Assembly (NCBI RefSeq): GCF_000377345.1
Contig: NZ_KB898037.1
Span: 63,412 to 127,411, forward strand
Length of the DNA stretch: 64,000 nucleotides
Reading direction: 5' to 3'
From: Thioalkalivibrio sp. ALJ16
GTDB taxonomy: Bacteria > Pseudomonadota > Gammaproteobacteria > Ectothiorhodospirales > Ectothiorhodospiraceae
Shown: one piece after another, positions 6,720 through 15,954 of the stretch
Position numbering within the stretch: the first letter of the stretch is position 1
Layout: each line of letters starts with the position of its first letter
Notes under the pieces: generated by a model
Seen by the model: only the letters and a program-made list of their open reading frames with translations
Database searches by the model: none
Told to the model about the DNA's origin: nothing
Translations under genes and position numbers: made by a program

Positions 6720-8738
6720 TCAGGGACGCCAGCCGAACTCGTCGGCCTTCTGCTGCGCCAGTGCCGGGATGTCGGTGGCGACGAACTTCTCGTGCAGCAC
6801 CTGCACGCCGATCATGTGGTTGATCACGGCGTCCAGCTGGACCTGGGTGGCCGCCGGGGTGTTCTCGTCCTCGTGGATCTCGAACACGCGGCGCACGCCC
6901 TCCGGGTCCAGCAGGCCCGCCTCGGCCACCTTCTCCGGCGACAGATAGCGATCGGCCAGGGCCTTCATCGCCGCCCACTTGACCGGATCGGTGTGCGCGG
7001 GCGGGGCCATGAACGCGAACTTCTCGCGCTCGTAGAGCACCTTCGGCAGCAGGCCCTTCATCGATTCGCGCAGCACGTACTTCTCGGTGCGGCCCTTGAT
7101 ACGCAGGGTCGGCGGGAGGTGGGCGCAGAACTCGGCCAGGTGATGGTCGAGAAACGGCGGGCGCGCCTCCATGGAGTTGGCCATGTCCATGCGGTCGCCC
7201 CCCCAGGTCAGGATCTGGCCCTCCAGCATGGTCTTTATCCAGACGTACTGGGCCTTGTCCAGCGGGTGCCGGCCTTCCAGCATGTCGTCGTCCAGGGCGT
7301 TGGCGATCGCACGGCCGGGCTGATAGCCCTGCATGCGTTCGCGGCGCTCCGGCGCCAGCAGGCCGGGCACGTGCTCGGCCGCCGCCAGCCAGGGCTGCAG
7401 GCAGGACGGGGTAAAGCCCATCATCTTCGTGAACTCGGGGTCATCGACCTCGTCCTCGGCCAGCATCGCGCCGGAGAACAGCTCGTTGGACTCGTTCAGC
7501 ATCTGCTGCCAGGCGACCCGGTCGGCCTCCGGCAGGGTGTCCAGGCCGTGCAGGAACATGTCGCGGCGGAAGGCCGGGTAGCCGCCGAACAGCTCGTCCG
7601 AGCCCTCGCCGGTGACCACCACCTTGTAGCCGGCCTCGTTCACGTGCCGGCTCATCAGCAGCTTGGCCACACCGAGGGTGTTGTAGATGGTGCGCTCGGC
7701 GTGCCACAGGGCCTCTTCGAAGTTGTCGTAGAGGTGGTCGGCATCCAGCCGCAGGATGTCCTGGTCGGCGCCGACGCTCTCGGCCATCTCGCGGGCGATC
7801 GCGGTCTCGTCGTAGTCGTCGTTGTCGAAGCCGATGGTGAAGGCCTTGACCGGCGCCTGCTGGCTGGCCGAGGCCAGGCCCAGGGTGATGCAGGAATCGA
7901 TCCCCCCGGAGAGGTAACAGGCGACCGGCACATCGGCCTCCAGACGCAGCTGGACGGCCTCCATCAGCTGTTCGCGCACGCCCTCGATCCAGTAGTTCTC
8001 GTCGGTGTCCTCCTCGGGCGGGCGCTCGGAGGCCAGCGGGAAGTCCATGTCCCAGTATTTCTCCTGGCGCACCTTCAGCTTGCCGTGGGCCCGCTCGACG
8101 ATGACCATGTGGCCGGGCTTCACCTGCTGGATACCCTCGAACGCGGTGGTCCCCGGGACCATGGTCTGCATCAGCTGGTGGTACAGGCCGTCGTCGGCGA
8201 ACTGGCGCGGGACGTCGGGGTTCGCGAACAGCACCTTCAGCTCGGAGCCGAACACGAAGCTGCCATTGGCCTCGGTGAAGTACAGCGGCTTGATGCCGAA
8301 GCGGTCGCGGATCAGCACCAGGCGGTCGCGCTTGCGGTCGTACAGCGAGATCGCGAACTCGCCGCGGAAGTGCTTGATCGCATCCTCCAGTCCCTCGCGC
8401 CGGTACAGGTGCATGACCATCTCGGAGTCGCTCTTGGTGCGGAACTGCACCCCGCGCGAGGTCAGGTCGGTGCGGATGCGCTTGTAGTCGTACAGCTCGC
8501 CGTTGACCGCGGTCATGATGGAGCCGTCGGTCATGCAGAACGGCTGGCGGCCGCGATTCTCGTCCAGGTCGATGATCGACAGGCGGGCATGGGAGAAGCC
8601 CACGCCGCGGTCGTCCTGCGTCCGGTAGCCGAAGCCGTCGGGGCCGCGGTGATACTGGATTGCGGCCATGTTGACCAGGGTCTGGGGGTCGACCTTGCGG
8701 TTGGGGTCGGCGTGAAAGATTCCGGCGATGCCACACAT
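6720..8738 (-). CDS. asnB: Asparagine synthase-like glutamine-dependent amidotransferase
   Basis: This is a class II glutamine amidotransferase fused to an ATP-dependent synthetase. Cys2 (MCGIAG), RGPDG, VNGELYD and RDRFGIKPLY define the glutaminase half. The PP-loop SGGIDS (277-282) and VVTGEGSDELFGG define the adenylating half. At 672 residues it is longer than E. coli AsnB (554). Such enzymes activate a carboxylate as an acyl-adenylate and replace it with ammonia from glutamine, usually giving asparagine. Here it is the last gene of a cluster containing a carbamoyltransferase, a symporter and two amide-type hydrolases, 95 bp after the ATCase-like gene. I infer that its substrate may be a carbamoylated amino acid rather than aspartate. 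The family is certain; the substrate is not. Confidence 0.85.
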   Translation of the reverse strand: MCGIAGIFHADPNRKVDPQTLVNMAAIQYHRGPDGFGYRTQDDRGVGFSHARLSIIDLDENRGRQPFCMTDGSIMTAVNGELYDYKRIRTDLTSRGVQFRTKSDSEMVMHLYRREGLEDAIKHFRGEFAISLYDRKRDRLVLIRDRFGIKPLYFTEANGSFVFGSELKVLFANPDVPRQFADDGLYHQLMQTMVPGTTAFEGIQQVKPGHMVIVERAHGKLKVRQEKYWDMDFPLASERPPEEDTDENYWIEGVREQLMEAVQLRLEADVPVACYLSGGIDSCITLGLASASQQAPVKAFTIGFDNDDYDETAIAREMAESVGADQDILRLDADHLYDNFEEALWHAERTIYNTLGVAKLLMSRHVNEAGYKVVVTGEGSDELFGGYPAFRRDMFLHGLDTLPEADRVAWQQMLNESNELFSGAMLAEDEVDDPEFTKMMGFTPSCLQPWLAAAEHVPGLLAPERRERMQGYQPGRAIANALDDDMLEGRHPLDKAQYVWIKTMLEGQILTWGGDRMDMANSMEARPPFLDHHLAEFCAHLPPTLRIKGRTEKYVLRESMKGLLPKVLYEREKFAFMAPPAHTDPVKWAAMKALADRYLSPEKVAEAGLLDPEGVRRVFEIHEDENTPAATQVQLDAVINHMIGVQVLHEKFVATDIPALAQQKADEFGWRP

Positions 8739-8833
8739 GGCATGTCTCCTTGGTTATCCGTTCGGTGCGAGCGGGGCGCGGCCCGGTCCGTTCCGGCGCG
8801 CCACGCCACTCGCGGTTCAGTTCAGTACGAGGT

Positions 8834-9916
8834 TCAGTCTTCCGGGGTGTCCATGACCGCGCTGATGCGGCGGACCACGCTGGTCAGCAGCGCCATGCGC
8901 ACAAACACCGCCCCGCGGGCCTGGGCGAAATACCAGTTGTGCGGGGTGTCATCGAGGTCCGTGGACAGCTCCGCACCGCGCGCCAGCGGGTGCAGGATGA
9001 TCGCGCCCTTCTTCAGCGGGGAGTTGCGGTCCAGCTTCAGGCCCTCGCCCATGGACTCGAAGGTATCGCCCACCCAGGCGATGGCGTTGATGTACACCAC
9101 GTCCAGCTCCGGCAGCACCGGGTCCAGTTCGTGCACCACGCGCAGGTTCAGGCCGGCCTCTTCCAGTTCCTCGCGCTGGCCGGGATCGAAGTTCTCGTCC
9201 TCGCGCGAGATGATCACGACCTCCGCGATCGCCTCCGGGAACAGGCTCAGCAGGCGCAGCAGCGAGCGCACCGTGCGCATGCGCGAGGGCACCCCGATGA
9301 TGCCGACCTTGATGCGGTCCTCCGGCGCCACCGGGCCGGTGAACAGCTCCGGGCGCCACTTGGCCAGGGTGTAGACATCCGCCAGCGCCTGGGTCGGGTG
9401 CTCGTCGATGCCGTTGCCGGCGTTGACCAGCGGGATGCGCAGGTTCTCCAGCATGTTGTGCGCGGCCTCGCCATCCGAGGAGCGCAGCACCAGCACGTCG
9501 CCATAGTTGTTGAACATCTCGGCGATGTCCGCCAGCGATTCACCCTTGGCGATGCCGGTGCTCTTGGGGTCGGTGATCGACATCACCGCCCCGCCAAGCC
9601 GGTGCCAGGCGCTCTCGAAGGACAGCCGCGTGCGGGTGGACGGCTCGTAGAACGCACTGATCAGGATCTTGCCCGCCAGCGGCAGGTGCATCAGGGCCGG
9701 GGTGGTCTCGTACTGCGCCGCCAGGCGGAACAGCTGCAGCAGTTCGTCACGCGTGAATTGCTGGCTGGAGACCACATGCGAGGCCGCCAGCTTCAATAGC
9801 GGGTCCGGGTCTTCCTCCACTGCGGTCAGCAGGGCCCGGGGGCGGTCCGTACCGGCGGTACCGTCCTTGGGATTAAGGGCGTGCAAGGGATCTTCGGTGT
9901 AGTTCACCAGAGGCAT
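8834..9916 (-). CDS. ATCase-like carbamoyltransferase with an altered amino-acid pocket
   Basis: The 360-residue protein belongs to the aspartate/ornithine carbamoyltransferase fold. Carbamoyl-phosphate residues are conserved: STRTR (93-97), Lys124 in IAKGESLAD, Arg145, and HPTQ (173-176). Arg214 matches E. coli Arg167. The segment equivalent to E. coli YMTRVQ, which holds aspartate-binding Arg229 and Gln231, reads YINAIA (275-280), so both are alanine. HPLPR has become HPLAR. This argues against a housekeeping PyrB and for another amino acceptor. The N-terminus is about 50 residues longer than a typical catalytic chain. The chosen ATG (9916) overlaps the end of the small gene upstream by 13 bases. 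No pyrI or pyrC is adjacent. Confidence 0.82.
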   Translation of the reverse strand: MPLVNYTEDPLHALNPKDGTAGTDRPRALLTAVEEDPDPLLKLAASHVVSSQQFTRDELLQLFRLAAQYETTPALMHLPLAGKILISAFYEPSTRTRLSFESAWHRLGGAVMSITDPKSTGIAKGESLADIAEMFNNYGDVLVLRSSDGEAAHNMLENLRIPLVNAGNGIDEHPTQALADVYTLAKWRPELFTGPVAPEDRIKVGIIGVPSRMRTVRSLLRLLSLFPEAIAEVVIISREDENFDPGQREELEEAGLNLRVVHELDPVLPELDVVYINAIAWVGDTFESMGEGLKLDRNSPLKKGAIILHPLARGAELSTDLDDTPHNWYFAQARGAVFVRMALLTSVVRRISAVMDTPED

Positions 9917-10026
9917 CCTTTTTTCCAGTCGCGAATGAACAGGGCCAGCAGCAGGATCGGGGTCAGGGTGGCCATCAGGGTGGCGGCCACCACGATGAGC
10001 GTCAGGGCCGTGGTCGAGACAGTCAT
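9904..10026 (-). CDS. 40-residue single-span membrane peptide beside the SSS symporter
   Basis: This is a short open frame of 40 codons plus stop. Its ATG overlaps the symporter stop in an ATGA junction (10023-10026), and its 3' end overlaps the start of the carbamoyltransferase gene. The product starts MTVSTTALTLIVVAATLMAT, continues hydrophobically to about residue 31, and ends in a charged tail (RDWKKGCLW), as expected of a one-helix inner-membrane protein with the tail in the cytoplasm. Back-to-back translational coupling on both sides is strong evidence for a real gene. Small accessory proteins are known next to some SSS-type symporters, so a stabilising or regulatory role for the neighbouring transporter is the best guess. 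Confidence 0.72.
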   Translation of the reverse strand: MTVSTTALTLIVVAATLMATLTPILLLALFIRDWKKGCLW

Positions 10027-11489
10027 GCCGGACTCCCCTTCGGTTGGACATCATCCCGCGCGAGGCGGTCCCAGTCGAACGGGCGCGGTGCCAGCCAGGT
10101 GCTGAGCACCATCACCGCCAGCGACACCGCTGCGCCCACCAGTGCCGCGACGTAGAAACCGATCAGGAAGTAGCTGGCGAGCCCGACACCCGACCCCAGT
10201 ATCATCGACCAGGCCGCGCCTTGCGGGTTCGCCCGCTGCCAGTACAGCCCGGCGACGATCGGCCAGATCGCGGAGGCCACGAAAGCGCCGGTGAAGTACA
10301 GCAGCTCGGCCAGCGAACCAATGATCGGCAGCGAGCCGCGATAGCTCGCGGCCAGCCAGGTCAGCAACCCCAGCAGCACCACGATCACCTTGGTCGCGCG
10401 AAACTGGCTCTGCTCGCTGGCCTGCGGGCGGATATGGCCGCGGTAGATATCGCGGGTGACCAGGTCCGAGGTGGCCGCCAGCAGCGAGTCGAGGCTCGAG
10501 GCCAGCGCGGCGAAGACGACGATGAAGACCACGATCGCGCCGGTCAGGCCGAGCACCTCGGCCGCGACCAGCGGCCCGACCATGTCCGCGGCGGGCACGT
10601 TGATGCCCAGCGCCGGCGTGGCCAGGGCGATGAAGCCGGCCACGATCGGGATCGGCAGCCACAGCAGCCCTCCCAGCAGGTAGGCGCGGAAGCCGACGTT
10701 GCGGCCAAAGGCGAAGGCGCGCGACCACCAGACGTTGGAGTGGAAGATCTCGCCCACCCCGAACAGCAGGTTGTTGAAAAGGAACATGATCGCGGCCGGG
10801 AACAGCAGGCTCAGCAGTTCCGGGCGCTCTTCCATCAGGTTGAAGTGGATCGCCTCGAACCCGACCTTGTCGATGGTCAGCCAGGCGATAAACGCCGCCC
10901 CCGCGATGATGATGATGGTCTGGATAAAGTCGGTCCCGATGACCGCGCGCAGACCGCCCAGCAGGGTGTAGATCACGCAGACGGTCAGGATCACGGTCAT
11001 GCCCACGCGATAGTCGATTCCGGCCAGGGCATTGATCAGCACCCCGCCGGCCATCGCCATCGAGACCAGCCAGCCGAAGGCGTAAATCAGCGAAACCACC
11101 AGGAACACGCGCCAGGTGAAGGTGCCGAAGCGCAGGCGGATGAAATCGCCGGAGGTGAAGCCGCGCGGCATCAGCTCGCGGATGCGGCGGGCCAGCGGCG
11201 CGAACAGGATCAGGCCCAGCGCCCCCAGCGAATACCCGAGCATGCCCCAGACACCGAGCTGCAGCGCCAGCTGCGGGGCGGTCATCGTGGTATTGGCGGT
11301 GACCCAGGTAGCCATCGCGGTCGCAGTGGCCAGCGCCATGCCGACATTGCGCCCGGCCAGCATGTGGTCCTCGGCGGTCTTGTTGTGACGACCCAGCCAC
11401 CAGCCGAGCGCCACCCAGAGGATGCTGAACGCGATCAGCAGCCCCCAGGCGATGGAGCTCGGGAGGATCGGGGCGTCGAGACCGTTCAC
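10023..11489 (-). CDS. Sodium:solute symporter (SSS family)
   Basis: The 488-residue protein has about 13 predicted transmembrane segments and SSS-family landmarks: the early AGRNVG segment after the first helix, GGLRAVIGTDFIQTIIII in the middle, and ASSLDSLLAATSDLVTRDIY, a Na+-site region. It presumably imports a small polar solute with Na+, which suits a haloalkaliphile. Parts recall urea-type (DUR3-like) members, but the substrate cannot be read from sequence. It overlaps the isochorismatase-family gene upstream by 4 bases and the 40-residue peptide downstream by 4 bases, so these genes are translationally coupled. In context the substrate may be the compound that the cluster makes or degrades. 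Confidence 0.88.
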   Translation of the reverse strand: MNGLDAPILPSSIAWGLLIAFSILWVALGWWLGRHNKTAEDHMLAGRNVGMALATATAMATWVTANTTMTAPQLALQLGVWGMLGYSLGALGLILFAPLARRIRELMPRGFTSGDFIRLRFGTFTWRVFLVVSLIYAFGWLVSMAMAGGVLINALAGIDYRVGMTVILTVCVIYTLLGGLRAVIGTDFIQTIIIIAGAAFIAWLTIDKVGFEAIHFNLMEERPELLSLLFPAAIMFLFNNLLFGVGEIFHSNVWWSRAFAFGRNVGFRAYLLGGLLWLPIPIVAGFIALATPALGINVPAADMVGPLVAAEVLGLTGAIVVFIVVFAALASSLDSLLAATSDLVTRDIYRGHIRPQASEQSQFRATKVIVVLLGLLTWLAASYRGSLPIIGSLAELLYFTGAFVASAIWPIVAGLYWQRANPQGAAWSMILGSGVGLASYFLIGFYVAALVGAAVSLAVMVLSTWLAPRPFDWDRLARDDVQPKGSPA

Positions 11490-12229
11490 GAGGCCTCCTT
11501 CACCTTTTTGATCTCGCGGATCGCCTCGTCGGTGGTCATCACGCGGGCGTAGCGATCCTTGATGGTGGTAATCGTCGCCTTCTGCATCTCCGGGGTCACC
11601 GTCGCGGTGGCGTCGTCCATCAGCGTGACATAGAAGCCCAGGTCACAGGCATCGCGCACGGCCGTGGATACGCACTCGTTGGAGTACACGCCCACGATGA
11701 ACAGCGCCGAGATGTTCAGGTTGCGCAGGATGTAGTGCAGGTTGGTCGAGTTGAAGACCCCGCTGGCGGTCTTGTCCAGCACGATCTCGTCGCCCACCGG
11801 CGCCACCTGTTCGACGAACTCCGCATCCTTGGAGCCGGGCGCGGCATGCAGGTTCAGGCGCTTGTGACCCGGGCTGCGGTCGCGGCCATCGCGGGTCAGC
11901 GAGCGGATGCGCGTGTGGATCACCTCCAGCCCCTGCTCGCGGAACGCATCCTGCAGGCGGCGCACGTTTGGGAGCACCGTCTGTTCCAGGCGGTTGAAGT
12001 AGTACTCCTGGGCCTCGGGCGGCACGCCGGACTGCATCGAGTCGGCGAACACACCGTGACCGCGCGCGGCATCGAGGTACTGCAGGTCGATGCACAGCAG
12101 GGCGACGTGATGCTCGCGCAGCTCCTGACGCAGGACCGGGGTCGTGATCAGGCTCTCCTGGTACTGCTCGCGCAGCGGATCCAGGGAGTCGTAGTCGGTG
12201 AGCTGGGACACGTTGTCGTTATTGGCCAT
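11486..12229 (-). CDS. Isochorismatase-family cysteine amidohydrolase
   Basis: The 247-residue hydrolase has the family catalytic triad: Asp48 in CIDLQ, Lys153 in LDKTASGVF and Cys186 in SNECVST. The last motif is typical of the amidase branch (N-carbamoylsarcosine amidase, ureidoacrylate amidase, biuret hydrolase, nicotinamidase relatives) rather than true isochorismatases. It lies between a carbamoyl-amino-acid-type hydrolase and a symporter in one operon. I infer that it cleaves a carboxamide or ureido bond of the cluster's compound. The roughly 40-residue N-terminal extension before the core fold is unassigned. Confidence 0.85.
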   Translation of the reverse strand: MANNDNVSQLTDYDSLDPLREQYQESLITTPVLRQELREHHVALLCIDLQYLDAARGHGVFADSMQSGVPPEAQEYYFNRLEQTVLPNVRRLQDAFREQGLEVIHTRIRSLTRDGRDRSPGHKRLNLHAAPGSKDAEFVEQVAPVGDEIVLDKTASGVFNSTNLHYILRNLNISALFIVGVYSNECVSTAVRDACDLGFYVTLMDDATATVTPEMQKATITTIKDRYARVMTTDEAIREIKKVKEAS

Positions 12230-12265
12230 GCCGGTCGGTCCTTGGGTCGCGGTGATGGGGGATGC

Positions 12266-13507
12266 TCACGGACGGGCGGCCAGGGCCAGGGCGCTTTGCA
12301 GCGTCAGGTTGGCGCCCGTCTCGATATCTTCCCAGTTTGTCCATTCCGCCGCGGAATGGCTACGCCCCTGCAGGCTCGGCACGAAGATCATGCCGGTGCG
12401 CGTGATCGCGCTCATGCTCTGGGTGTCGTGGGCGGCCCCGCTGGGCATGGTCAGGTACTCCAGGCCCATGCGTTCGGCGGTCGCCTCGATGGTCTGCACG
12501 ATGCCCGTGTCACAGCGCACCGGGTCGATCTCGGAGAGCACATCGAACTCGAACATCAGGTCGCGCCGGCGCGCGAGGCTGGACAGCGTGCGACGGGCCG
12601 CGTGGGCCAGCGCGGTCAGGACCTTCTCGTCGGTATCGCGCACCTCGAAGGAGAAAGTCGCCATGCCCGGCACGGTGTTCGCCGCGCCCGGCGAGAGCTC
12701 TACGCGGCCGATGGTCGCGCGCGAGTTCGGGCTGCCGTGCTCTTCCAGCAGGCGATTGATCTCGCCGCCGAACTCGGCCAGCCCCTGAAAGGCATCATTA
12801 CGCATGTCCATCGGTGTGGTGCCGGCATGGTTCGGCTGCCCCTTCAGGCGCACCTCCCACTTGAACAGGCCGGTAATGGCCTCGACCACGCCCACACTCA
12901 GGCCGCGGCGATCCAGCACCGGGCCCTGTTCGATATGGGTCTCGATGAAAGCGTGCAGGGAGTGCGGGTCGCGCCGCGCGCTCAGCGCATCGTCGGCATT
13001 CAGACCCCAGTTGGCCATCGCCTCGACCAGGGTGATGCCCTCGAGATCCCGGGCATGGCTGATGCTCTCCGGGGTCAGCTTTCCGGCCATTGCCTGCGAC
13101 CCGAACATGCCGCCGAAACGGCCCTCCTCGTCGGTGAAGTCGATCACCTCCAGCGGGTACTGCAGATCGACCGCGTGGTCCTTGGCCGTGCGCAGCACCT
13201 CCAGCCCGATCAGCACCCCGAGGGCACCATCCAGCGGGCCGCCCCCCGGGACGGTATCGAGATGCGAGCCCATGGCGACCACCGGGCGCTTGCCGTCGTA
13301 GTCGAGCCGGCCGTGCAGGTTGGCGGCACCGTCCTGCCAGACGTCCAGGCCCGCAGCCTCCAGGCGGCCGCGAAACCACTCGCGCCCGGCACGGTCGCCC
13401 TCGCTGAAGGCACGGCGGTGCAGGCCACGGTCAGCGTCGCGTCCGATCTGCCCCAGCTCGGTAATGTCCTGCTGCAGGCGCTGCATGTTGATCTTGAGTT
13501 CGTTCAT
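12266..13507 (-). CDS. M20-family Zn-dependent N-carbamoyl-amino-acid hydrolase / allantoate amidohydrolase
   Basis: The 413-residue protein is of the hydantoinase/carbamoylase class. Metal and catalytic motifs are intact: GSHLDTVPGGGPLDGALG (His82, Asp93), FTDEEGRFGG..GSQ (Glu127/128), HIEQGP, the dimer-lid motif PNHAGTTPM and SGAAHDTQ. Members hydrolyse ureido groups to amine, CO2 and ammonia. The family includes N-carbamoyl-L-amino-acid hydrolases, allantoate amidohydrolase and beta-ureidopropionase, which sequence alone does not separate here. It is 36 bp upstream of the isochorismatase-family gene. Beside a carbamoyltransferase it could undo the carbamoylation, which suggests turnover of a carbamoylated solute. 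Confidence 0.87.
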   Translation of the reverse strand: MNELKINMQRLQQDITELGQIGRDADRGLHRRAFSEGDRAGREWFRGRLEAAGLDVWQDGAANLHGRLDYDGKRPVVAMGSHLDTVPGGGPLDGALGVLIGLEVLRTAKDHAVDLQYPLEVIDFTDEEGRFGGMFGSQAMAGKLTPESISHARDLEGITLVEAMANWGLNADDALSARRDPHSLHAFIETHIEQGPVLDRRGLSVGVVEAITGLFKWEVRLKGQPNHAGTTPMDMRNDAFQGLAEFGGEINRLLEEHGSPNSRATIGRVELSPGAANTVPGMATFSFEVRDTDEKVLTALAHAARRTLSSLARRRDLMFEFDVLSEIDPVRCDTGIVQTIEATAERMGLEYLTMPSGAAHDTQSMSAITRTGMIFVPSLQGRSHSAAEWTNWEDIETGANLTLQSALALAARP

Positions 13508-13576
13508 CGTGTTCTCCGATAAGGCCGCCGGCCCCGGTCGCGGTACACGCGGATCGACGGGGCGGGGCAGGTGAAT

Positions 13577-13993
13577 TCAGCCGCGTGGGCGACCGCGCAG
13601 GATGGCCACGATCAGGACCAGAAAGACGACGCCCCCCAGCACGAAGAAGCCGAATGCGCGAGCCAGGCTGTGATGCTCGACGCGGACCGTGGCCGTATCC
13701 GACCAGTCGTCGGCGTCGCTGGCACGCAGGCGGAAGCGGTATTCGCCATCGGGCAGACCGCTCACCACCGTGCTGGTGTCATGGCCTTCGTAGATGATGC
13801 GTGCATCGCCGTGATCCGGGCCCGCGGCCTGCTCCAGAGCGACGGCGCCAGCGGCCTCCCAGCTCAGGGTAAAGCCCCCGTCCGTGGAACGCTCGGGGGG
13901 GGCGTCGAAGGCTGGAGCCGCCTGCACCGCCAGCGGCAGCCACAACAGCGCCAGCAGCAGGGAACGAGCGGCACTCATCGCGGGCCAGCGCAT
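13577..13993 (-). CDS. Secreted, membrane-anchored protein with fibronectin type III-like domain
   Basis: The 138-residue protein has a signal peptide (about 1-25, ending AVQAAP), a beta-rich Fn3-like core (STDGGFTLSWEAAG ... LPDGEYRFRLRASDADDW) and one C-terminal transmembrane helix (about 113-133) ending RGRPRG, so the domain should face the periplasm. No enzymatic motif is visible. It begins 8 bp after marR and heads the structural genes of the cluster. Its role there is unknown; surface or cell-envelope sensing is only a guess. The Met five codons downstream is an alternative start. Confidence 0.68.
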   Translation of the reverse strand: MRWPAMSAARSLLLALLWLPLAVQAAPAFDAPPERSTDGGFTLSWEAAGAVALEQAAGPDHGDARIIYEGHDTSTVVSGLPDGEYRFRLRASDADDWSDTATVRVEHHSLARAFGFFVLGGVVFLVLIVAILRGRPRG

Positions 13994-14001
13994 CGTGGGT
14001 C

Positions 14002-14526
14002 TCAGGACTTGCCGTCGAACGGCTGAAGTCCGGCCCGTTCTTCAGTGGTGTTCATGGCCTCCACGAGCAGGTCCAGCCCCTGGTTCAGGTCGTCCAGGCG
14101 CCCCTTCGGCAGCGACTGCAGCGCACGGTTGAGCTCGCCCTGAGGGGCCGCCGGAGCTCGGTCCAGCAGTTCCATCCCCTGGTCGGTCACGTACAGGCGC
14201 ACAATGCGCTGGTCCTTCTCCGGACGGCGGCGCTCGATCAGGCCGCGCTGTTCCAGCTTGTCGAGCAGATTGGATGTGGTCGAGGCGTGCACCGACAGCC
14301 GGCGCGAGAGATCGCTGACGTTGAGCCCCGGGGTCCGCTGCAGCTCCCACAGGGCCCACAGCTGCGAGGCGCTGATGCCGCAGGCACGCTCCACCGTGCG
14401 CGAGTGCCCCTGCAGCGCCCGAATAATCACGCGGAGCTGGCGGATGACCGAGCGCACGACATCGGGCTCGGTACTGTTGTTCGGATCGGGTTCCGGCCCC
14501 GATCGTGTGGCCTGGCTCAGCGACAT
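14002..14526 (-). CDS. MarR-family transcriptional regulator, probable local repressor (EctR-like)
   Basis: The 174-residue winged helix-turn-helix protein reads as MarR: LWALWELQRTPGLNVSDLSRRLSVHASTTSNLLDKLEQRGLIERRRPEKDQRIVRLYVT, given in short here only to point at the HTH (LNVSDLSRRLSV) and wing (RRPEKDQRIV). The start at 14526 is preferred over the far-upstream Met at 14739, because the extra N-terminus is low-complexity and lies across the palindrome. It is the first gene of the minus-strand cluster. An 18-bp palindrome lies 33 bp upstream of its start, so autorepression is likely. MarR proteins of the EctR type control ectoine genes in halophilic methylotrophs, which fits an osmolyte operon. 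Confidence 0.85.
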   Translation of the reverse strand: MSLSQATRSGPEPDPNNSTEPDVVRSVIRQLRVIIRALQGHSRTVERACGISASQLWALWELQRTPGLNVSDLSRRLSVHASTTSNLLDKLEQRGLIERRRPEKDQRIVRLYVTDQGMELLDRAPAAPQGELNRALQSLPKGRLDDLNQGLDLLVEAMNTTEERAGLQPFDGKS

Positions 14527-14558
14527 CGCATTTCTCGTTATTTCAGCATCTGTTTGGT

Positions 14559-14576
14559 TATTTTTGTACAAAAATA
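14559..14576. promoter_or_regulatory. Perfect 18-bp palindrome, candidate MarR operator
   Basis: TATTTTTGTACAAAAATA is fully self-complementary and strikingly AT-rich for this genome. It can be read as 8-bp half-sites with a 2-bp centre, the layout I recall for the EctR1 operator. A minus-strand TTGCAA hexamer at 14583-14588 places it over the likely -10 region of the marR operon. Confidence 0.65.
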
Positions 14577-14796: not shown

Positions 14797-14892
14797 GTGC
14801 CGCCGAACACGATTTCGTGCGCAAGACGCTCGTCTATCCGCCCGGGAGCATCGCGGGCAGCAGCCATAACGCCTACCAGAAGAGGAATTGCA

Positions 14893-15954
14893 ATGAAAAA
14901 GACGACCAGCTGGACCCTGGCGCCCCTGTCCGGTGCCGTTGCCCTGGCCCTGTTCCTGGGCCCGAATGCCGCCGTCGCCGAAGGTGCGGGTGGTCTCAAC
15001 TTCGATTTCTACGGGTCGCTGCGTACCCACGGCGAGTACGTGCGGCCAGATAACCGGAATGAAAGCGATGGGGGTGTAGATTCATATTGGGGTATGCGGG
15101 ATGCGTATTCCAGGCTCGGGGTCCATATGAACTACGACATCAACGACCAGTTGGAGCTGTTCGGTCAACTCGAAATCGCCCTGGACAGTGCGAACCTGAA
15201 AGTTCAGGACCCTTATGATCAGGAAGAGGAAGTTCGAGTTGCCCAAGTTGGGCTGCGAGGAGATTTCGGGACCATTCAGATCGGACAGCAGTGGCTCCCC
15301 TACTACAACGCCATCTCCTTTCCGGTCGATATGTTCAGCACCTACTACAGCGGCTTCGCGACCTACACCGTGTTCCGTGTGAGGGATTCTGTCGCTTACT
15401 ACAGCCCCGACTTCAATGGCTTCTCGTTCGCGGCCTCCTATTCCGACGACCGAGGCAACGAGAGCTCCACCTCTCGGATCGACGACAGTCGTGCCCAGTT
15501 CACGGCTTCATATAACTTTGGCGATACCACCATTTCGGCTGGTGTCGACGACCGAGGCAACGCTAACGGGGAGCGAGACCGCATTTACGGCCTGTCCGCA
15601 TCACATCAGATGGGAGACTGGTACTTCGCTGCGAAGTACGAACAGTTCGATACGTTTAATGATACGTCTGGCGCCTTCAACGAAGATGGCGGCGAGGCCT
15701 TCAATGTCTTTGCCAGCTACACCCTTGGGAAGAACACTTTCAAGGCCATGCTCGCGAATGTGGACAACTACGGTGAAGATATTGTCCATCTTGGGTACGA
15801 TTACCAGTACAACGACAGCCTGAAATTCTTCGCCGAGTACTACTACGAAGAAGAGACTGCCGCGATCACCCCACGGCGCGGCGGGCTCCAGGATTTCCCT
15901 GCCAACGCACAAGGTGGGCAGGTCATTGCGGCGGGCCTTCGGTTCGACTTCTGA
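14893..15954 (+). CDS. Gram-negative outer-membrane porin
   Basis: The 353-residue precursor starts MKKTTSW at an ATG preceded by AGAGGA. It has a signal peptide ending AVAEG and alternating beta-strand pattern throughout (FYGSLRTHGEY, LELFGQLEIAL, FGTIQIGQQ, SFAASYSDD), with the obligatory C-terminal aromatic (AGLRFDF). It is a 16-strand general porin type, and many loop residues are acidic. The middle of the gene (about 15050-15840) has visibly more A/T at third positions than its neighbours, while both ends are GC-rich. It is divergent from the MarR-headed cluster and shares its intergenic region, so joint osmotic control is possible. An in-frame ATG at 14797 is too early to be the start. 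Confidence 0.9.
   Translation: MKKTTSWTLAPLSGAVALALFLGPNAAVAEGAGGLNFDFYGSLRTHGEYVRPDNRNESDGGVDSYWGMRDAYSRLGVHMNYDINDQLELFGQLEIALDSANLKVQDPYDQEEEVRVAQVGLRGDFGTIQIGQQWLPYYNAISFPVDMFSTYYSGFATYTVFRVRDSVAYYSPDFNGFSFAASYSDDRGNESSTSRIDDSRAQFTASYNFGDTTISAGVDDRGNANGERDRIYGLSASHQMGDWYFAAKYEQFDTFNDTSGAFNEDGGEAFNVFASYTLGKNTFKAMLANVDNYGEDIVHLGYDYQYNDSLKFFAEYYYEEETAAITPRRGGLQDFPANAQGGQVIAAGLRFDF

Follow-up and report, generated by a model that had tools for sequence, protein, structure and literature searches.

The salt-protecting solute carbamoylglutamine amide (CGA; N-alpha-carbamoyl-L-glutamine 1-amide) dates from a 1991 description by Galinski and Oren, which PMC3857566 cites; Ectothiorhodospira marismortui is its documented source (PMC3857566), and in 2013 a single organism was still given as the only one known to contain it. 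More loosely, PMC7824335 mentions CGA accumulation in 'other purple sulfur bacteria'; it also lists DSM 4180 as the type strain of E. marismortui. No description of CGA genes was found in the literature of PubMed Central (PMC), as far as its text was accessible to searches by compound and by gene combination, and this agrees with a preliminary description of the DNA treated here, in which no such genes were known. This DNA is a 64,000-nucleotide stretch of the genome of the soda-lake bacterium Thioalkalivibrio sp. ALJ16 (contig NZ_KB898037.1, positions 63,412 to 127,411 of the forward strand; the window in what follows), and it holds an operon of eight genes that we propose as a candidate for the synthesis, uptake and recycling of CGA.

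The pathway for N-acetylglutaminylglutamine amide (NAGGN) comprises the amidotransferase described by the model TIGR03104 and an acetyltransferase. The operon resembles this system in that an enzyme of the AsnB family is proposed to amidate the alpha-carboxyl group of an N-capped glutamine derivative, giving a neutral osmolyte. It differs in the cap, which here would be a carbamoyl group delivered by an enzyme with the fold of aspartate carbamoyltransferase (ATCase), whereas NAGGN carries an acetyl group on a dipeptide. An identity of the AsnB of the operon as an NAGGN amidotransferase was considered and dropped, its score against TIGR03104 being 305 bits (cut-off 570.1).

A predicted route for the synthesis and recycling of CGA

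The eight genes lie on the minus strand at positions 6720-14526 (Table 1), and the coordinates, tight junctions and family assignments given for them in the preliminary description were confirmed. Neighbouring frames overlap by 4 bases at three junctions: between the isochorismatase-type cysteine amidase (ISOC) and the sodium:solute symporter (SSS), between the SSS and an open reading frame (ORF) of 40 aa, and between that ORF and the carbamoyltransferase (CTase), the last counted from GTG 9907, to which an in-frame ATG at 9916 is the alternative start. The other junctions are gaps of 8 bp (MarR/Fn3), 69 bp (Fn3/M20), 36 bp (M20/ISOC) and 95 bp (CTase/AsnB). Because the arrangement recurs in several genera and families and in two phyla, it is not due to chance.

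This operon probably makes, takes up and recycles CGA, with CTase and AsnB for synthesis, the hydrolases for recycling and the symporter for recovery. The CTase would carbamoylate glutamine at its alpha-amino group, with carbamoyl phosphate as donor, giving N-carbamoylglutamine, and AsnB, with ATP and the nitrogen of a further glutamine, would convert the free alpha-carboxylate into an amide to give CGA. Upon a drop in salt, ISOC would strip the 1-amide and the M20 hydrolase the carbamoyl group, so that glutamine, ammonia and CO2 would be returned, and the SSS, its 40-aa partner and the Fn3 protein would recover leaked solute. MarR would act on a single palindromic operator that precedes the MarR gene. 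The preliminary description had already read the genes as an osmolyte operon for making, importing and recycling; that reading is supported here and refined, in that only CTase and AsnB are near-invariant, transport and hydrolases being separable from them, and in that the putative operator has a single copy in the genome. A more specific version would make the CTase a new carbamoyltransferase activity, L-glutamine alpha-N-carbamoyltransferase, and CTase with AsnB the missing CGA pathway across Gammaproteobacteria and spirochaetes; uptake would be by a new SSS transporter built of three parts, one of them a periplasmic Fn3 subunit and another a subunit of one helix. For this version as a whole we consider the case evenly poised.

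AsnB passes the asparagine synthase model TIGR01536 (422.2 bits, cut-off 267.1), and its glutaminase and synthase Pfam domains were both found. The M20 protein passes the hydantoinase/carbamoylase model TIGR01879 (370.9 bits, cut-off 204) and the subfamily model NF006771, which is named allantoate amidohydrolase (531.2 bits, cut-off 399), and is far below the allantoate deiminase model AllC, TIGR03176 (258 bits, cut-off 597.75). Its top equivalog score was to ErtE, an N-carbamyl-L-glutamate amidohydrolase (NF058540), again under the cut-off (390.9 against 520 bits), and its best relative in the PDB is the N-carbamoyl-L-amino acid hydrolase 3n5f (280.8 bits). It thus belongs to the family of the M20 carbamoylases, ErtE and the allantoate amidohydrolases, and is assigned to neither ErtE nor AllC, both scores being under their cut-offs. 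In ISOC the catalytic Lys and Cys align with those of the top PDB match, the cysteine hydrolase 6xix; further matches include the N-carbamoylsarcosine amidohydrolase 1nba and the biuret hydrolase 6xjm. ISOC has the isochorismatase fold in common with biuret amidohydrolase and N-carbamoylsarcosine amidase. It differs from them in its gene neighbours, a carbamoyltransferase and an amide synthase; among NCBIfam models its best score, to BiuH, misses the cut-off (79.8 against 370 bits).

The Fn3 protein had no Pfam match above the cut-off (best 19.5 against 27 bits), although its predicted structure (pLDDT 85) backs the Fn3 fold given in the preliminary description, the top Foldseek matches being Fn3 domains (E 2e-4). 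We propose it as a membrane-anchored periplasmic partner of the symporter. One locus (L084) has a stop in the coordinates given and was left out of the Fn3 alignment.

The carbamoyltransferase lacks counterparts of ATCase R229 and Q231

Three OTCace genes are encoded in the window genome. Two of them pass the cut-offs for ATCase (TIGR00670, 309.7 bits) and for ornithine carbamoyltransferase (OTCase; TIGR00658, 388.6 bits), and the CTase of the cluster is a third paralog beside them, with 198.9 bits against the ATCase equivalog cut-off of 236.95. Its structural model (pLDDT 84.3, pTM 0.87) retrieved ATCases in all of the 50 PDB entries listed (Z 33.8-37.3, root-mean-square deviation about 2 Å). 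To compare the active sites, we used an alignment of 38 CTases, namely that of the window and those of 37 of the 80 loci described below; L087, which has a stop codon in the coordinates given, was left out, and L109 with it. The carbamoyl-phosphate site, which in the numbering of E. coli PyrB comprises STRT, K84, R105, H134 and Q137, is retained: S90, T91, R92, T93, K121, R142 and H170 are invariant in all 38 sequences and Q173 is present in 37. Equally invariant is R211, the equivalent of ATCase R167 and the arginine for the alpha-carboxylate. By contrast with PyrB, the positions of R229 and Q231, which in ATCase hold the side-chain carboxylate of aspartate, are A/S/T and A/S/V in 38 of 38, and the counterpart of P268 is Ala. 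HMMER alignments with the ATCases of the PDB pair these altered columns with their R and Q; the ATCase of the same genome, encoded by a separate gene, keeps both residues in the motif LRLQRER, where the CTase of the cluster reads YINAIAWVG. Beside the altered residues, N274, I276 and W278 are invariant in all 38 CTases, which come from the Idiomarina/Kangiella branch as well as from the other branch.

Fold, carbamoyl-phosphate site and R167 counterpart are thus common to PyrB and the CTase, and the altered residues argue against aspartate as the acceptor. Most simply, the site would take an acceptor whose alpha-carboxylate is free and whose side chain is neutral. Glutamine fits this description, and so does carbamoylation before amidation.

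The cluster in the known CGA producer and its relatives

In E. mobilis DSM 4180 (locus L078), the genes for MarR, M20, ISOC, CTase and AsnB stand in a row with open frames and are 60, 71, 74, 72 and 79% identical, respectively, to their counterparts in the window. At NCBI the name E. marismortui resolves to E. mobilis, the two names being treated there as one species. CGA was reportedly isolated from strain DSM 4180 itself. A comparison with species known to contain CGA, as proposed in the preliminary description, thus places CTase, AsnB, M20 and ISOC together and open in the documented producer. Ectothiorhodospira magna and Thiorhodospira sibirica, which are listed without betaine or ectoine biosynthesis in PMC7824335, both carry CTase and AsnB.

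Relatives were compared over the best 80 of 305 confirmed CTase relatives, which come from 39 isolates and 41 metagenome-assembled genomes (MAGs). In the 69 loci with enough flanking DNA (11 were left out), genes of the cluster were counted if they had the same orientation as the CTase and were no more than 7 kb from it. In this check of co-occurrence, proposed in the preliminary description, CTase and AsnB were linked in 68 of the 69. The single exception to the linkage is T. sibirica, whose matching AsnB lies elsewhere in the genome (G032:C4:2304938; 74% identity, no stops); its CTase (L080, 8849-10041) is accompanied by an orphan ORF for the 40-aa partner with no SSS adjoining. A genome-wide search found a matching AsnB in 12 of 12 CTase-bearing genomes, in one of them (G079) as the second half only, at 72% identity. 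The distance matrices of CTase and AsnB were correlated at r=0.82 over 71 loci and at 0.74 over 54 after removal of L054-L071 and L100, with a permuted maximum of 0.13. CTase and AsnB are co-inherited.

The other genes come and go in blocks. SSS, the small ORF and the Fn3 gene occurred all together in 60 of the 69 loci, and SSS and Fn3 were both missing in the other nine, among which the small ORF alone persists in T. sibirica; this strict tie of an SSS symporter to an Fn3 membrane protein and a one-helix-like protein of 40 aa is a possible instance of a three-part SSS transporter. Both M20 and ISOC were found in 44 loci, M20 alone in six and neither on the same strand in 19, and in seven loci of the whole set an M20 relative (45-48% identical) stands on the opposite strand only. 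Six further loci had CTase, AsnB, M20 and ISOC in every case, with SSS and Fn3 together in five and both missing in one. Because these presence patterns separate, we distinguish three units: CTase and AsnB as the core for synthesis, one module for transport and one of hydrolases. The 19 loci with no hydrolase on the same strand place recycling outside the core.

Taxonomically, the CTase subfamily was found in 41 of 47 genomes of the family to which the window belongs, the six misses being all at most 80% complete, and in 7 of a further 97 genomes of the class that were sampled as relatives. A class-wide set of 369 genomes gave 22 full or near-full copies and one split over two contigs, with a clear gap between scores of at least 366 bits and those of at most 274 bits. 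One of the 41 copies in the window's family, from the Ectothiorhodospira genus group (G044:C1:1194650-1195683), lies in two overlapping frames, by frameshift or sequencing error. A sister subfamily (L174-L178, 220-274 bits) was considered as a related pathway and set aside, with no AsnB, M20 or ISOC in the adjoining DNA, some of which is ended by contig ends; its member L176:7974-9125 (minus strand) reads SRSHTRLSF instead of STRTRLSF. The best 80 loci include Thioalkalivibrio, to which the closest named relatives by CTase belong, Ectothiorhodospira, Thiorhodospira, Thiohalobacter, Thiohalophilus, Idiomarina, Aliidiomarina, Pseudidiomarina, Kangiella, Aliikangiella, Pleionea and Pseudomaricurvus, together with MAGs, among them some of Leptospiraceae and Spirochaetaceae. 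The genera of all 39 named isolates are marine, halophilic or of soda lakes, so that among these isolates the cluster does not occur mainly in non-halophiles, a possibility the preliminary description had named as contrary to its reading. The Idiomarina/Kangiella branch is without ISOC and often without a same-strand M20. Leptospiraceae and Spirochaetaceae MAGs (L092, L117, L124, L130 and L133) have the cluster with a CTase identity of 62-64% and with M20 and ISOC standing between CTase and AsnB; their possession of it points to transfer from one phylum to another. L117 also has, directly upstream, an ORF reading like a PII protein.

A putative local MarR operator and the sucrose synthase neighbourhood

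The perfect palindrome TATTTTTGTACAAAAATA, a putative MarR operator, is laid out as TATTTTTG-TA-CAAAAATA, two A/T-rich half-sites of 8 bp around a centre of 2 bp, and is the sole match in the 2.755-Mb window genome, even with three mismatches. Because it is single-copy, the regulator looks local, and a global regulon was rejected. In loci with MarR close to the cluster, variants matching a loose expression were found upstream of MarR in 20 of 23 and, after addition of L059 and L062 (both positive) and L061 (not), in 22 of 26, compared with 112 of 4600 random windows (2.4%). Read by eye, the four loci missed by the expression (L061, L065, L066 and L069) also contain related palindromes. A stricter form, TTTTGNNCAAAA, was found in 13 of 23 loci and in 44 of 4600 random windows.

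This layout resembles that of the EctR1-regulated ectoine operon, in which a MarR-type regulator meets an A/T-rich 8-2-8 operator, the operator of EctR being described as two 8-bp half-sites 2 bp apart (PMC5924519); the likeness is to that description only, and the solute genes are different ones. A link to ectoine itself was rejected: 4 of 144 relatives have an EctA that passes the cut-off, and the 47 genomes in the family of the window have none. No MarR homolog was found within about 1.5 kb of the ectA gene in any of these four relatives, in one of which ectA sits at a contig end, and a direct comparison with EctR failed for that reason.

In E. mobilis L078, MarR is flanked by a divergently oriented sucrose synthase gene (TIGR02470, 1182 bits). 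All 7 named Ectothiorhodospira loci have this gene next to MarR in that orientation, and several further loci have it close to the cluster; a fructokinase-like gene follows the Ectothiorhodospira cluster on its downstream side at a varying distance. Both genes also occur in L113, a MAG outside Ectothiorhodospira, and the T. sibirica genome has a sucrose synthase above the cut-off; neither gene was matched within the window. The palindromic sites of Ectothiorhodospira fall in the stretch common to MarR and sucrose synthase. With sucrose synthase divergent from the cluster and the fructokinase-like gene beyond it, one promoter region may serve two osmolyte systems in this genus.

Alternative explanations for the operon

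Several observations weigh against the proposal that the operon makes and recycles CGA. PMC3857566 ranks CGA among the minor solutes of E. marismortui and reports no Raman signal for it there, in a study that had no CGA reference spectrum. Unless regulated, an operon that encodes a synthase together with two hydrolases would drive a futile cycle, and in 19 of 69 loci neither hydrolase is on the same strand within 7 kb. The NF006771 model that the M20 protein passes fits ureide catabolism by name; the window genome contains a carbamate-kinase-like gene (328.6 bits, below the cut-off of 358.25); and that genome is without a sucrose synthase above the cut-off, so that the sucrose neighbourhood is seen in relatives only. 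Finally, a CTase that has kept R211 and lost R229 and Q231 also suits other amino acids with a neutral side chain. The same logic could serve a different solute, the amide of an N-carbamoylated asparagine or of some other neutral amino acid so modified, in Thioalkalivibrio or in the Idiomarina/Kangiella branch, with CGA itself confined to Ectothiorhodospira. This would agree with the literature found, which documents CGA from E. marismortui alone, with the residues beside the lost R229 and Q231, which alone do not specify glutamine, and with the lack of ISOC and often of a same-strand M20 in the Idiomarina/Kangiella branch; however, the invariance of N274, I276 and W278 across both branches favours one common acceptor, and we consider another solute unlikely. 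Ureide catabolism, the alternative raised in the preliminary description, would involve import of a ureide by the symporter, its breakdown by the hydrolases and a CTase that runs in reverse to carbamoyl phosphate. The M20, isochorismatase and SSS families are frequent in the catabolism of ureides and hydantoins, and the M20 score against NF006771 points the same way. Because a carbamate-kinase-like gene exists, a backward-running CTase is conceivable on this ground, and absence of carbamate kinase was rejected as an argument against catabolism. That gene lies on another contig (L202:5704-6603; G000:C6), and no carbamoyltransferase gene was recognised adjoining it. We know of no catabolic role for AsnB-type synthases, which consume ATP and glutamine; CTase and AsnB are kept in 18 of the 19 loci with no same-strand hydrolase and in 8 of the 9 with no symporter; and the M20 protein is far below the AllC model. 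Catabolism of a ureide is accordingly rated as quite improbable.

Two further explanations concern the synthetic enzymes themselves. The ATCase fold of the CTase and the passing of TIGR01536 by AsnB would suit a second aspartate carbamoyltransferase next to an asparagine synthetase, yet a separate ATCase and OTCase are already in the genome, other residues stand at the positions of R229, Q231 and P268, and the CTase scores under the ATCase equivalog cut-off; the linkage to carbamoyl and amide hydrolases and the presence in 23 of 369 genomes of the class are likewise unlike a housekeeping enzyme, and we find this explanation scarcely credible. It is also very unlikely that the cluster makes a carbamoylated and amidated natural product apart from osmotic stress. 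AsnB-like amidotransferases do occur in natural-product pathways, and the PDB relatives of AsnB include a hydroxyamidotransferase and a beta-lactam synthetase. Against this, no gene family besides those of the cluster recurs in more than 17 of the 80 loci, a figure from crude gene clustering in which not all families are identified and whose gene caller confuses strands in high-GC DNA; the named isolates are of saline taxa, and genes of sucrose metabolism neighbour the cluster in Ectothiorhodospira.

Features of the locus

Divergent from MarR in the window stands a gene for a general porin (14797-15954, plus strand), with a counterpart at the matching place in several Thioalkalivibrio loci.

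Table 1. Genes and sites of the operon in the window, and the sucrose genes next to the cluster of E. mobilis DSM 4180 (L078)
Feature	Position	Strand	Basis or remark
AsnB-type glutamine-dependent amide synthase, 672 aa	6720..8738	-	Pfam Asn_synthase and GATase_7; TIGR01536
ATCase-fold carbamoyltransferase (CTase), 357 aa from GTG 9907	8834..9907	-	OTCace_N and OTCace
40-aa one-helix-like symporter partner	9904..10026	-	ORF; present with every SSS gene, 60/60 full-context loci
Sodium:solute symporter (SSS) family	10023..11489	-	PF00474, 118.9 bits
Isochorismatase-type cysteine amidase (ISOC)	11486..12229	-	PF00857; Lys and Cys aligned with 6xix
M20 N-carbamoyl-L-amino-acid hydrolase	12266..13507	-	TIGR01879 and NF006771 passed; best PDB relative 3n5f
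Fn3 membrane protein (N-terminal hydrophobic helix, Fn3 domain, C-terminal helix)	13577..13993	-	predicted structure
MarR-family regulator	14002..14526	-	PF01047, 62.3 bits (scanned as 14002-14529)
18-bp perfect palindrome TATTTTTGTACAAAAATA, putative MarR operator	14559..14576	.	32 bp upstream of MarR start
Sucrose synthase / fructokinase-like genes	L078:3888-6272 and 12247-13161	- / -	counterparts in L072-L077

Implications for solute metabolism

The proposal of a two-enzyme route, with its genes present in the original CGA species, makes the question of how CGA is made directly testable. It also suggests that genes which in these genomes are likely annotated as aspartate carbamoyltransferase and asparagine synthase have another role. 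For E. magna and T. sibirica, surveyed without betaine or ectoine biosynthesis in PMC7824335, CGA would be a candidate solute. If the proposed pathway is correct, CGA would be common to soda-lake sulfur oxidisers, Idiomarina, Kangiella and spirochaetes, and would not be a solute of one phototroph.

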